DNA from: Geotoga petraea
GTDB taxonomy: Bacteria > Thermotogota > Thermotogae > Petrotogales > Petrotogaceae
NCBI RefSeq assembly: GCF_900102615.1
Contig: NZ_FMYV01000007.1
Location: 1-64,000 of the forward strand
Length of the DNA: 64,000 bases
Reading direction: 5' to 3'
Shown here: in pieces, positions 1 to 27,603 of the stretch
Position numbering within the stretch: the first letter of the stretch is position 1
Layout of the letters: the number at the start of each line of letters is the position of its first letter
Notes under the pieces: generated by a model
The model's input: only the letters and a program-made list of their open reading frames with translations
Database searches by the model: none
Told to the model about the DNA's origin: nothing
Made by a program: the position numbers and the translations under genes

Positions 1-1770
1 TCATTCAATAACGTCCTCCCCTTTCTTCATAACCGTCATACGATTTTCTGCATCAAAAAAATCTTTCAATATCGTTTTGTTTTTTAATGCTTCTTCTTTT
101 TCTCCATCTAACACCACTTTCCCATTTTCTATTCCTATTATCCTTTTCGCCATGTTTAATATACTGAATCTATGCGATATTATTATTACTGTTTTATCTT
201 TTGTATATTTTTTTATGTTTTTTATCACTTCTTCTTCTCTTATTTTATCCACTCCTTCAAGTGGTTCGTCCAATATCACTACTTCTGGATCTGATATCAT
301 CATTCTTGCAAGAGCTACTCTTACCCTTTGACCTCCAGATAAGTTTTTCCCGTTTTGTCCTACTGTTTTCTCATTTATAAATTTTTCTACTCCTGTTATA
401 TGAAGTATATTGTTCAATTTTTCTTCTGATATTTCTCTTCCCATCGTTATGTTTTCTTTTATACTCCTATTGAATATATGACTATTTTGACTTAATACAC
501 CTATCTTTTCATATATATTTTTTATTTCATTTGTTGGCTTATCATTTATTAACGTTTCTCCTTTTTCAGGCGTTTCATTTCCTGTTATTAGTTTTATAAA
601 TGTGGTTTTGCCTTCTCCACTTTTTCCTATTATTGCTACTTTTTCTCCTTTTTTTATTGTTATATTTACTTTGTTGAATATTTCTTTTTCTCCATATGAA
701 AAATCTAAATCTTTTATTTTTATTTCTTTTATCTCTCCTATATCATATCTCTTCTCTACTTTTTCTTCTGTTTCAATTATTTCTTTCATTTTATTAATAG
801 AAGGAGCATAATAATTTCTGTTTTTAAATAAAAAATTCATAAATGGTTCTATATTCTCACTAATAATATTAATATAAGTAAGAGTGAAAAATATATTTCC
901 AATAGTTATCCCACTATTTAGTAGATTCGATGTATAAAACCATAAAAATATAAAAGTATAATATAAAAATGATAATAACCGAAACGGAAAATGGAAATTC
1001 TTAAGTTCTTGTGTCCAAATATTTTTAAACCCAAAATAAAGTTCTTTTGACTTTTCCTTAAAAAAAGACTCTTCTTGATTTATTACATCTGATTCTTTTA
1101 TAACCTCTCTCCCTTCTAAAGAATCATTCACATAACTCACTAACTGCCTTGAATCTTCCATAAGTTTACTATATTCTTCAAAACCTGGAATTTTACCTTT
1201 ATGTTTTTTCATTGAAGGTCTTAAAAAAACATAAATATACAAAGAAAAGTATATTATTGAAATTATTGCAGCGCCTAAATTTACAAACCCCAAAATAATT
1301 ATGGCTATTATAGCAACAAAAATAGAAAGCATACTATTTACAGTATCTATATTAAGCACTTCAGAAGCTTTTTTTATGTCGAATGATATCACTTCTGAAA
1401 AATAAGAACTTCCATTTTCAATTATTTCCTTTATATCGTTTAAATATATTTTTTTATATAATTTTTCTTTATAAAATTTTTCTATCTTGTAAGTGATTAG
1501 AGATGAAAAATAATTAAAAATATAATTTAAAGAAAGGCTAATGGCATATAATATTGCAAAAAGAATTATTAATTTCACCGCAATTGTTTCTTGTGACATA
1601 GCAATAAAGTTTTTATATACAAAAGGAATATAAAGATTTATCCCAAGTATTATTAAAGCCCCAAAAGTTATGAATAACAAAAAAAACCTTTCTTTTATTT
1701 CAATATTTTTTATTATCCATAAGATCATATTCACTTCTTTTTTAGTTTTATTAAAAAATTCATTTTTCAT
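1..1770 (-). CDS. ABC exporter (permease + ATPase) of a peptide cassette
   Basis: This is a half-transporter of the ABC exporter class. About five hydrophobic segments fill the first 310 residues, followed by a nucleotide-binding domain. Numbered from an upstream ATG at 1794, Walker A (GKSGEGKTT) is near 390, the signature LSGGQ near 485, Walker B (VVILDE) near 505 and the switch His near 541. The ATG at 1770 is preferred because a G-rich ribosome site lies just before it. There is no N-terminal C39 peptidase domain, so any leader removal needs another protease. It follows the radical SAM gene by under 30 bases, which points to export of the modified peptide. The substrate is inferred from context only. 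Confidence 0.85.
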   Translation of the reverse strand: MKNEFFNKTKKEVNMILWIIKNIEIKERFFLLFITFGALIILGINLYIPFVYKNFIAMSQETIAVKLIILFAILYAISLSLNYIFNYFSSLITYKIEKFYKEKLYKKIYLNDIKEIIENGSSYFSEVISFDIKKASEVLNIDTVNSMLSIFVAIIAIIILGFVNLGAAIISIIYFSLYIYVFLRPSMKKHKGKIPGFEEYSKLMEDSRQLVSYVNDSLEGREVIKESDVINQEESFFKEKSKELYFGFKNIWTQELKNFHFPFRLLSFLYYTFIFLWFYTSNLLNSGITIGNIFFTLTYINIISENIEPFMNFLFKNRNYYAPSINKMKEIIETEEKVEKRYDIGEIKEIKIKDLDFSYGEKEIFNKVNITIKKGEKVAIIGKSGEGKTTFIKLITGNETPEKGETLINDKPTNEIKNIYEKIGVLSQNSHIFNRSIKENITMGREISEEKLNNILHITGVEKFINEKTVGQNGKNLSGGQRVRVALARMMISDPEVVILDEPLEGVDKIREEEVIKNIKKYTKDKTVIIISHRFSILNMAKRIIGIENGKVVLDGEKEEALKNKTILKDFFDAENRMTVMKKGEDVIE

Positions 1771-1799
1771 TTTATTCCCCCATCCAATAATCATAATCT

Positions 1800-3065
1800 T
1801 TAAAACAATAATTTTACATATTCATCTAAATAATATTTTTGTGGAATACAAACTTTTTTATTTTTAATATTTCTTATATAATCACATCCTTGAAGACAAA
1901 TAGGTAATACTTTACAATTCAAACATTCATCATCTATATCAATATTTTTATTAAAATTATTTCTCCCACTATAAGTTTCAATAATTCCATTTTTATTTAT
2001 TTGCCCTATAATATTATTTTTTTCAAAATCTACACCCGTACAAATTATTTGCTCTCTATTTGGTAAAATGAAATATGAGTTTTTCATTCCTGATGTACAC
2101 GAATTATATTTATTTTCATAAAACCATTCCTTTGTAGAAAACCCTAATTTTTTCACGTACTTATAAAGGTTTATAATTTTTTTTATAATTTTACTTGAAT
2201 TCTCATTTAATCCAGGATTTTCCCCTGGATTATTATGAATTGGATTTAAACTTACAAAAATATTATTTTTAAACTCTGATAAATAAAATAAAAAGTCTAA
2301 ATCATTTTCACTCATTTGTGAGTAAATGTTTATCCTTAAATTAACAAATACATTATCTTTATATTTTTTTAAAATATAAATTAGATTATTGAGTATTTGA
2401 TTAAAAGTATCTATATTTTTATTATTTTTTAAAAACCTTCTTTTGTTGTGTGAACTTTTATTTCCATCTAAAGTTATTTGAAAATTTCTAACTTTTAAAT
2501 CTCTTATTAATTTATCAGAAATTTTTTCACTTAACAAATATCCATTTGTAATAATTGATGATATAAATCTTTTCTTAGGATATTTTTTTATTAAATAAGA
2601 ATTTAACTTTTCAATATTTTTAAAATTCATCAACGGCTCTCCACCAAACCAAGATAAATTTATATTATTCTTACTATTAATTTTTCTTTCAATAAATTTA
2701 ATTATATAATTAATATTTTCACTAGACAAATTACTTTCTTTAATATGATTCTGATAACAATATACACATTTAAAATTACAATCTAATGTTGAAAAAATTG
2801 TTAGATTTAAAGTATTTTCATTTAATATTCTTTTTTTCATAAAGTTAATTATAATCTCTTCTTCATTAACTTCATCATTTATTACAAAGTTATTATCAAA
2901 TAAAATTTTATTTATTTCTGGAAATTTACTAATTCCTTTTAACCCTAATAATATTTTTTCATGTTCATCTTTTTTATAAGAAATTATTGATTTGTATAAA
3001 ATATTACACAGAATATAATTATCTTTGTTCATTTTAGTAATTACGTTATATTTTGATACTTTCAT
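1800..3065 (-). CDS. Radical SAM/SPASM peptide-modifying enzyme
   Basis: A 421-residue radical SAM protein. The CxxxCxxC cluster site is C96, C100 and C103 (context LDCNFKCVYC), followed by a GGEPL motif typical of the family. The last 100 residues hold a Cys-rich SPASM region (CTSG, then CLNCKVLPICLQGC and a last Cys) that would bind auxiliary Fe-S clusters. The roughly 85 residues before the core may be a peptide-recognition domain. Enzymes of this architecture crosslink or otherwise modify ribosomally made peptides. The small Cys-ending peptide gene upstream and the ABC exporter downstream fit a RiPP cassette. The exact chemistry cannot be told from sequence. Confidence 0.85.
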   Translation of the reverse strand: MKVSKYNVITKMNKDNYILCNILYKSIISYKKDEHEKILLGLKGISKFPEINKILFDNNFVINDEVNEEEIIINFMKKRILNENTLNLTIFSTLDCNFKCVYCYQNHIKESNLSSENINYIIKFIERKINSKNNINLSWFGGEPLMNFKNIEKLNSYLIKKYPKKRFISSIITNGYLLSEKISDKLIRDLKVRNFQITLDGNKSSHNKRRFLKNNKNIDTFNQILNNLIYILKKYKDNVFVNLRINIYSQMSENDLDFLFYLSEFKNNIFVSLNPIHNNPGENPGLNENSSKIIKKIINLYKYVKKLGFSTKEWFYENKYNSCTSGMKNSYFILPNREQIICTGVDFEKNNIIGQINKNGIIETYSGRNNFNKNIDIDDECLNCKVLPICLQGCDYIRNIKNKKVCIPQKYYLDEYVKLLF

Positions 3066-3080
3066 TTATAAGCTCCTTTT

Positions 3081-3115
3081 TAAAAAAGCTTATCATATTT
3101 TAAAATATGATAAGC
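3081..3115 (-). terminator. Attenuating terminator between peptide gene and its maturase
   Basis: A perfect 28-base palindrome at 3088-3115 can fold as a hairpin. On the minus strand it is followed by six Ts. It sits between the precursor peptide and the radical SAM gene. Partial termination here would give much more precursor than enzyme mRNA, as is common in peptide cassettes. Confidence 0.7.
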
Positions 3116-3125
3116 ATAAATTAAT

Positions 3126-3224
3126 TTAACAACCAAAACAATTACCATTTTTTGGAGAAGGGGATATAGATCCTGATAAAGTTGTAGGTTTTGAAATTAT
3201 TTTGATTTTTGTATCTTTTTTCAT
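3126..3224 (-). CDS. Candidate RiPP precursor peptide, 32 residues
   Basis: A short ORF with a near-ideal ribosome site (GGAGGT, 6 bases before ATG). The peptide has a Lys-rich N-terminal half (MKKDTKIKIISKP), a Ser/Thr/Pro/Gly middle and the C-terminus KNGNCFGC. Two Cys residues lie in the last four positions and there are none elsewhere. This leader-plus-Cys-core layout, directly upstream of a radical SAM/SPASM enzyme and an ABC exporter, is what a thioether-bridged or similar peptide precursor looks like. I do not recognise a named family. The assignment rests on size, ribosome site and context. Confidence 0.7.
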   Translation of the reverse strand: MKKDTKIKIISKPTTLSGSISPSPKNGNCFGC

Positions 3225-27084: not shown

Positions 27085-27175
27085 CCAACCATTAACATAC
27101 AACGAGCAACTAACAACCGAGAATTTGTTTTACAAATTCTCACTATCTTCCAACAGAAATCTCTGATTTCTATAT
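27085..27175. repeat. Hairpin repeat of the CAAC-array family
   Basis: CAAC-rich spacers frame the hairpin GAGAATTTG-TTTTA-CAAATTCTC and then GAAATC-TCT-GATTTC. The first hairpin and the flanking CTATCTTCCAAC recur at 58345-58380. The rest of 26999-27323 holds only promoters. Confidence 0.6.
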
Positions 27176-27250
27176 GAATGTTACAAAACAATTAGTGGAG
27201 TGCACCCCATATTTAATTGAAGCTTTACATAAATTACTATGTTTTTACTG

Positions 27251-27281
27251 TTGACATAAGGTTTACTTCACGAACTATAAT
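27251..27281 (+). promoter_or_regulatory. Promoter of the twin micro-peptide unit
   Basis: TTGACA (27251-27256) and TATAAT (27276-27281) are both perfect, with a 19-base spacer. It lies 40 bases before the first micro-ORF's ribosome site. Confidence 0.7.
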
Positions 27282-27323
27282 AGTAGTGAAAATATAAATA
27301 CTTACTTCTAAGGAGGAGTTATT

Positions 27324-27416
27324 ATGACTAAAAGAGATAACAAAATACCTAGTGCAAATGAAAACATCATGAACCAATATTCTAACGTTGCTGCTGAATT
27401 AATGAGAAGTTTCTAA
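27324..27416 (+). CDS. Micro-peptide 1, 30 residues
   Basis: A short ORF with a strong ribosome site (AAGGAGGAG). The N-terminal half is charged (MTKRDNKIPSANEN). The C-terminus is NQYSNVAAELMRSF, which matches the end of micro-peptide 2 (NNHSNIVLELMRY). It has no Cys and no membrane helix. Being too short for most gene finders, it is likely unannotated. It could be a signal peptide hormone, a precursor or a small protein partner; nothing nearby settles this. Confidence 0.6.
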   Translation: MTKRDNKIPSANENIMNQYSNVAAELMRSF

Positions 27417-27443
27417 TCACTTTCTTTTAAAGGAGGGATTAAC

Positions 27444-27545
27444 ATGTTTAGAAATAATAAAAAGTTAGAAAGAAATTATGATAGCGCCAGAGAAGATTTA
27501 TACAATAACCATTCTAATATAGTTTTAGAATTAATGAGATACTAA
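27444..27545 (+). CDS. Micro-peptide 2, 33 residues, paralogue of peptide 1
   Basis: A second short ORF 27 bases after the first, again with a very strong ribosome site (AAAGGAGGG). It is basic at the N-terminus (MFRNNKKLERNYDSARED), with the shared C-terminal pattern N(Y/H)SN(V/I)xxELMR plus a terminal aromatic. The duplication with conserved C-terminus, two good ribosome sites, a consensus promoter and a terminator make translation likely. Function unknown. Confidence 0.6.
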   Translation: MFRNNKKLERNYDSAREDLYNNHSNIVLELMRY

Positions 27546-27567
27546 CCTCAATAAAATAAATTCATCT

Positions 27568-27603
27568 AAAAAGACGCCTTTTTTTAAAAAAGGCGTCTTT
27601 TAT
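27568..27603. terminator. Bidirectional terminator
   Basis: AAAAGACGCC and GGCGTCTTTT arms around an A/T loop, with T-rich exits on both strands. It ends the micro-peptide unit on the plus strand and the five-gene signalling operon on the minus strand. Confidence 0.85.

Follow-up and report, generated by a model that had tools for sequence, protein, structure and literature searches.

A candidate micropeptide regulon with promoters of putative MerR type in Geotoga petraea and copies of its units in Halanaerobium

A previously undescribed family of peptides is encoded at four genomic places in Geotoga petraea, a Thermotogota bacterium of the oil-field type. Four dispersed loci specify five peptides of 30-41 aa; one locus lies in the 64 kb stretch of DNA analysed here (the window; G+C 30.4%) and the others, called C6, C1 and C9, were located by searching the genome of the same organism (G000; 2,166,325 bases, 17 contigs). 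They are best read as a micropeptide regulon that is horizontally mobile, restricted to certain lineages and active within the cell, with MerR-type control suggested by the promoter design and an intracellular site of action by the character of the peptides. That the four loci constitute a small regulon, with MerR-type activation and cytoplasmic helical effectors as a proposal, is given a probability of about 0.5. The features involved are collected in Table 1.

Table 1. Features of the window unit, related loci and MerR-domain proteins in the Geotoga genome (strand "." where a feature has no direction)
Feature	Position	Strand	Remarks
Conserved upstream regulatory region	27178-27250	+	DNA alignment; left edge common to C6, C1 and Halanaerobium copies
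Near-palindrome TGGAGTGCACCCCA, candidate regulator site	27196-27209	.	Core TAGTGGAGTGCACCC from 27193; centre 61 bp upstream of promoter dyad
TTTACATAAA element	27224-27233	+	Starts 27 bp upstream of -35 in every locus
Promoter, TTGACA-N19-TATAAT, with AGGT-TT-ACTT dyad core in spacer (MerR-type design)	27251-27281	+	Sequence
Ribosome binding site, peptide 1, AAGGAGGAG	27310-27318	+	5' UTR 95% identical to L043 copy
Peptide 1, 30 aa, MTKRDNKIPSANENIMNQYSNVAAELMRSF	27324-27416	+	97% identical copy at C6; Halanaerobium copies in L044 and L043
Ribosome binding site, peptide 2, AAAGGAGGG	27429-27437	+	Kept in L043
Peptide 2, 33 aa, MFRNNKKLERNYDSAREDLYNNHSNIVLELMRY	27444-27545	+	Best conserved member; 31/33 identical in Halanaerobium; paralogs C1 (52%) and C9
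Intrinsic terminator, probably bidirectional	27569-27601	.	15-bp stem, 3-base loop, T run
C6 copy	C6:167651-167740		98% identical 243 bp: upstream region, promoter and peptide 1; lacks peptide 2
C1 copy	C1:17390-17476		Peptide-2 paralog (52%), same upstream DNA
C9 locus	C9:63880-63910		First ORF encodes MFKKFRGIENYKKDRHAESFYEAYNRVEDMKNIYLEVNRYI
MerR-domain protein L071	G000 C3:222454		Fused methyltransferase-like domain below Pfam cut-off; Trm112-like stretch
MerR-domain protein L072	G000 C5:131308		Fused methyltransferase-like domain above Pfam cut-off
MerR-domain protein L070	G000 C3:244095		100-aa ORF, methyltransferase ORF close behind

The signals from which an earlier note on this DNA had deduced the unit (TTGACA, TATAAT, two strong ribosome sites, ORFs of 30 and 33 codons, a terminator) are all present where it had placed them. 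Its central claim, a dedicated transcription unit for real and apparently unannotated paralogous micropeptides, is supported. The paralogy lies above chance: peptides 1 and 2 align with a score of 57, where shuffled sequences average 21 (p <= 5e-4). The two ORFs also share an identity of 12 nt, GAATTAATGAGA, which could derive partly from recombination rather than selection. The -35 element (27251-27256) and the -10 element (27276-27281) are separated by 19 bp, a distance that the earlier note leaves unstated, and for this reason a standard sigma-70 scan, with spacers of 16-18 bp, does not report the promoter. The two strands of the 64 kb together contain just two exact TTGACA/TATAAT pairs at a spacing of 15-21 bp, and a 19-bp spacer is found solely at 27251. 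The terminator looks bidirectional and is therefore probably common to the peptide unit and the convergent gene for an HD-domain protein. The further statement that the unit holds nothing else has to be corrected, because the conserved unit already starts at 27178, some 73 bp before the -35 element, and includes TGGAGTGCACCCCA and TTTACATAAA.

This upstream DNA is shared among the loci. Alignments of the window with both Halanaerobium copies (L043 and L044, see below) begin at 27178, and within the 73 bp upstream of the -35 element the window is identical to C1 at 54 positions and to C9 at 41, each more than in any of 5000 shuffles. The core TAGTGGAGTGCACCC has three occurrences in the genome, every one upstream of these peptide genes, and a single match, with 1 mismatch, in 60 relatives; GTGGAGTGCACCC together with TTGACAT is also present upstream of both Halanaerobium copies, and at C9 a half-site alone is found at the distance of the near-palindrome. 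The spacing of TTTACATAAA is fixed at the four Geotoga loci and in both Halanaerobium copies. (A possible third ORF at 27174-27254, MNVTKQLVECTPYLIEALHKLLCFYC, was rejected and the segment is treated as regulatory DNA, because the differences from L043, with codons read by eye, are amino-acid-changing from GTG GAG on and because the frame is broken at C6.)

The promoter elements can be combined into one architecture, TTTACAT-N20-TTGACA-N4-GT-N2-AC-N9-TATAAT (23 bases), which matches the genome with 0 mismatches at exactly the four loci and nowhere else; a reversed control gives 0 matches. Since the pattern was built from those loci, their exact fit follows by construction. The informative parts of the test are the absence of the architecture elsewhere and the finding of C9 through the promoter pattern. 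In 102 other Thermotogota genomes there are 3 scattered near-matches (1-3 mismatches) versus 5 for the reversed control. The C9 locus was reached by promoter search without any peptide sequence, and its peptide proved similar to peptide 2 (p = 0.0025) and to the C1 peptide (p = 0.0075); its similarity to peptide 1 is not significant (p = 0.13). The loci have different neighbours: a CDF transporter and the HD-domain protein in the window, PolB and a GNAT acetyltransferase at C1, and a permease and a nitroreductase at C9. The C6 locus, like L044, adjoins a DUF2281 antitoxin-like gene and a PLD-SNF2 helicase that belongs to a recognised defence type (its best model in PADLOC is HKD+Snf2). Nitroreductase-family genes adjoin two of the four loci (C6 and C9, SagB-like at C9), which may be coincidence. 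Downstream of the C9 peptide (L082) there is also a perfect GAGGTTTACCTC palindrome, then a TATAAT, and immediately afterwards a terminator-like hairpin.

A 19-20 bp spacer that encloses a palindrome has been described for every known member of the MerR family of regulators, and promoters with such spacers are described as normally weak without their activator (PMC1526738); the BluR-controlled ycgZ promoter has been discussed in similar terms (PMC3509220). A spacer of 19 bp, which fits this range, is present at all four Geotoga loci and in both Halanaerobium copies. Dyad symmetry in the spacer is strongest at C9, with 6 of 8 positions (the contiguous six give a perfect TAGAGT-TT-ACTCTA), followed by C1 (5/8) and by the window and L043 (4/8 each). 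The C1 and window dyads are degenerate but keep the GT-N2-AC core in the C9 register. A 19-bp spacer with a dyad core is a MerR-type design, and expression is consequently likely to be regulated and not constitutively abundant. The abundance that had been read from the perfect hexamers is accordingly unsupported, given the weakness described for over-spaced promoters. The genome encodes three MerR-domain proteins above the family cut-off (Table 1). No MerR gene adjoins any of the four peptide loci. On inspection, no dyad like that of the peptide promoters was seen upstream of the MerR genes. Elsewhere, an MFS transporter gene is directly preceded by a promoter of MerR type at G000 C3:240531-240561 (L081), where the spacer is 19 bp and the core AGT-CA-ACT.

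The family extends to another phylum, where copies occur in an unrelated, salt-loving bacterium. The earlier note had made its proposal depend on conservation outside the strain, and this is observed, in addition to the three further loci in the Geotoga genome: a scan of 84,980 species genomes for the pattern gave two real matches, both in Halanaerobium saccharolyticum WC1, a Utica Shale strain (PMC13340142). (Three matches to the upstream box, L041, L042 and L045, were rejected on reading as lying in non-homologous sequence.) L043 carries the complete unit with both peptides, and L044 carries a peptide-1 unit within a 3.58 kb segment sharing 97.4% identity with the C6 region. This segment (L044 96-3676; L025 6692-10272) consists of the PLD-SNF2 helicase, the DUF2281 gene, the peptide locus and a nitroreductase. 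Such identity between genomes of different phyla argues for a recent transfer of the block. The window unit aligns to L043 as one block with sharp ends (27178-27545), which is what transfer in one piece would be expected to leave. The L043 copy is not regarded as contamination: four congeners are collinear with the flank of this contig, at 78-98% identity, which argues that L043 is true Halanaerobium chromosome, a conclusion that covers the L043 contig only. A search of 120 Halanaerobium relatives did not find the unit in any of them. The L043 copy has an Eco57I-type methylase on one side and a TenpIN-like type III toxin on the other, and an IS91-type transposase adjoins. The toxin (below the NCBIfam cut-off) and three 56-nt direct repeats, at L043 1804-2491, resemble a type III toxin-antitoxin locus. 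The copies in WC1, which have island-like surroundings, show horizontal exchange with Halanaerobium.

Comparison of the window with L043 also bears on whether the ORFs are translated. Identity is 97% in the promoter, 95% in the 5' UTR and 93% in ORF2, and falls to 86% in the upstream region, 83% in ORF1 and 74% in the gap between the ORFs. For peptide 2, dN is 0.024 and dS 0.42, estimates that are rough because they come from a single sequence pair. Five of its 7 substitutions fall at third codon positions and 4 of 6 changed codons are silent; without constraint, the chance of at least 5/7 silent would be about 0.001 and that of at least 4 silent about 0.014. Peptide 1 is looser, with dN 0.18 and dS 0.32 from the same pair. 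From this substitution pattern the ORFs are judged to be translated, and purifying selection seems to act on peptide 2.

The peptides have a GRAVY of about -0.8 to -1.2 (-0.78 to -1.23) and a net charge of +0.5 to +7.6; with such GRAVY values they do not have the short hydrophobic membrane helix of type I toxin peptides. Peptide 2 is predicted to form a single helix at middling confidence (mean pLDDT 75), and the hydrophobic moment is significant in peptide 1 alone. At E <= 10 the window and C1 peptides match nothing in Pfam or NCBIfam, and the peptides have no match in PHROGs, PADLOC or PDB sequences, no copy in phage and plasmid records, and no protein homolog in Thermotogota outside their own genome; weak matches in other Thermotogota (e.g. 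L006) were set aside as chance. Viral contigs yielded neither a relative of the peptides nor a match to the promoter architecture. The idea that the conserved C-terminus is the active part is only partly borne out: an Arg within the last three residues, then an aromatic or aliphatic residue, is kept, but ELM is lost in several copies, being replaced in WC1 peptide 1 (VEFLRSV), C1 (LDMRVF) and C9 (LEVNRYI).

Several other explanations were weighed against an intracellular regulon. The unit might be carried by mobile defence islands, as a passenger or as an addiction-like cassette, engaged in anti-phage or anti-plasmid conflict or forming a toxin-antitoxin-like pair, with its spread explaining the copies. 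Its movement as a sharp-edged block and the company that it keeps in L043 (methylase, toxin with repeats, transposase) and at C6 and L044 (HKD+Snf2-type helicase, DUF2281 gene) are what such a cassette would predict. However, the window, C1 and C9 loci sit among ordinary genes, and neither PADLOC nor the phage and plasmid records hold a counterpart of the peptides. Moreover, C6 keeps peptide 1 alone, so peptides 1 and 2 are not an obligate pair. This account is considered unlikely. Even less is to be said for secreted signalling peptides of the Rgg/SHP or PapR kind with positive feedback through the common promoter, an option close to the secreted signals or precursors of the earlier note. Tiny paralogous peptides behind a conserved operator-like box are suggestive of it, but the sequences are strongly hydrophilic and contain no secretion features, hydrophobic segment or hydrophobic C-terminus, and at none of the loci is there an obvious receptor, protease or exporter gene. 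The window unit likewise has no receptor, transporter or maturase gene, and positive evidence for secretion is absent; signalling of this kind seems improbable. Since the peptides are hydrophilic, basic and free of secretion features, and given the helix prediction, we infer that they are intracellular effectors rather than secreted signals.

It is very unlikely that the product is instead a regulatory RNA (a small RNA or leader), with the ORFs of secondary importance. The 5' UTR is indeed the best conserved transcribed part, and the transcript folds better than its shuffles (z -2.8), much of which is due to the terminator; yet Rfam gives for the window unit sub-threshold matches alone, around the terminator, none of them credible, and most of the ORF2 changes are synonymous. 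Leaderless bacteriocins or RiPP precursors would also be short and basic, and a SagB-family nitroreductase gene follows the C9 peptide and another nitroreductase gene stands beside C6. Against this, the peptides have neither Cys nor a core-like repeat, the units contain no cyclodehydratase, immunity or transport genes, and no RiPP maturase shares a unit with them, the SagB-like gene lying just beyond a terminator-like hairpin that splits it from the C9 peptide. SagB-like enzymes often stand alone, and this last explanation appears highly improbable. A separate, small RiPP-like cluster does occur in the window at 1-3224 on the minus strand, where a Cys-containing peptide of 32 aa, MKKDTKIKIISKPTTLSGSISPSPKNGNCFGC (3126-3224), with a strong ribosome site is followed by a radical SAM protein and an ABC transporter. 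The radical SAM protein resembles SPASM peptide maturases, below every listed NCBIfam cut-off.

Under the preferred reading of an intracellular micropeptide regulon, a DNA-untwisting activator of the MerR family would bind the dyad in the over-long spacer that separates the -35 and -10 boxes and would switch all of the loci on together under some stress; a second protein, at the site 61 bp upstream, would perhaps assist. The peptides, as short basic helices, would then remain cytoplasmic and bind and modulate a cellular partner, a step proposed with less confidence and by analogy with the small proteins controlled by BluR. A bolder version, in which the MerR-type-controlled, micropeptide-only regulon, exchanged horizontally between Thermotogota and Halanaerobium of the saline subsurface, represents a new class of stress-induced small-protein effectors, possibly controlled by this genome's unusual MerR-methyltransferase fusions, is put forward as speculation that we think rather unlikely to hold in full.

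The nearest functional analogue that can be named is E. coli ycgZ-ymgABC with its MerR-like regulator BluR (YcgE), where several small proteins are under a MerR-like regulator, as proposed here, and an over-long promoter spacer. BluR, however, is a repressor encoded beside its operon, whereas the micropeptide genes occupy four dispersed loci with no adjacent regulator. YcgZ and YmgAB are clearly longer than these micropeptides, and no homology to YcgZ, YmgA or YmgB was found in Pfam or NCBIfam, so that the resemblance would be one of analogy and not of membership. The BluR-controlled small proteins feed other regulatory pathways (PMC3509220). Promoters of the MerR, SoxR, CueR and ZntR type (PMC1526738) resemble the peptide promoters in the 19-bp spacer and, at C9, in a perfect dyad inside it in the GT-N2-AC register; the window dyad is imperfect, and the loci here have extra upstream elements (TTTACATAAA and the GGAGTGCACCC box). 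The peptide loci differ from the short-peptide signalling units Rgg/SHP and ComR/ComS in having no receptor gene nearby, and their peptides differ in having no secretion or hydrophobic pheromone features. In those units, too, a conserved operator and promoter precede a tiny ORF.

Automatic annotation usually omits genes of such small size. In this genome a further member of the family was reached from the promoter design alone, and regulon architecture can thus reveal micropeptides that homology searches overlook. If the regulator is confirmed, these loci would represent a compact regulon of small proteins from a deep-branching phylum, exchanged with an unrelated bacterium of similar habitats.
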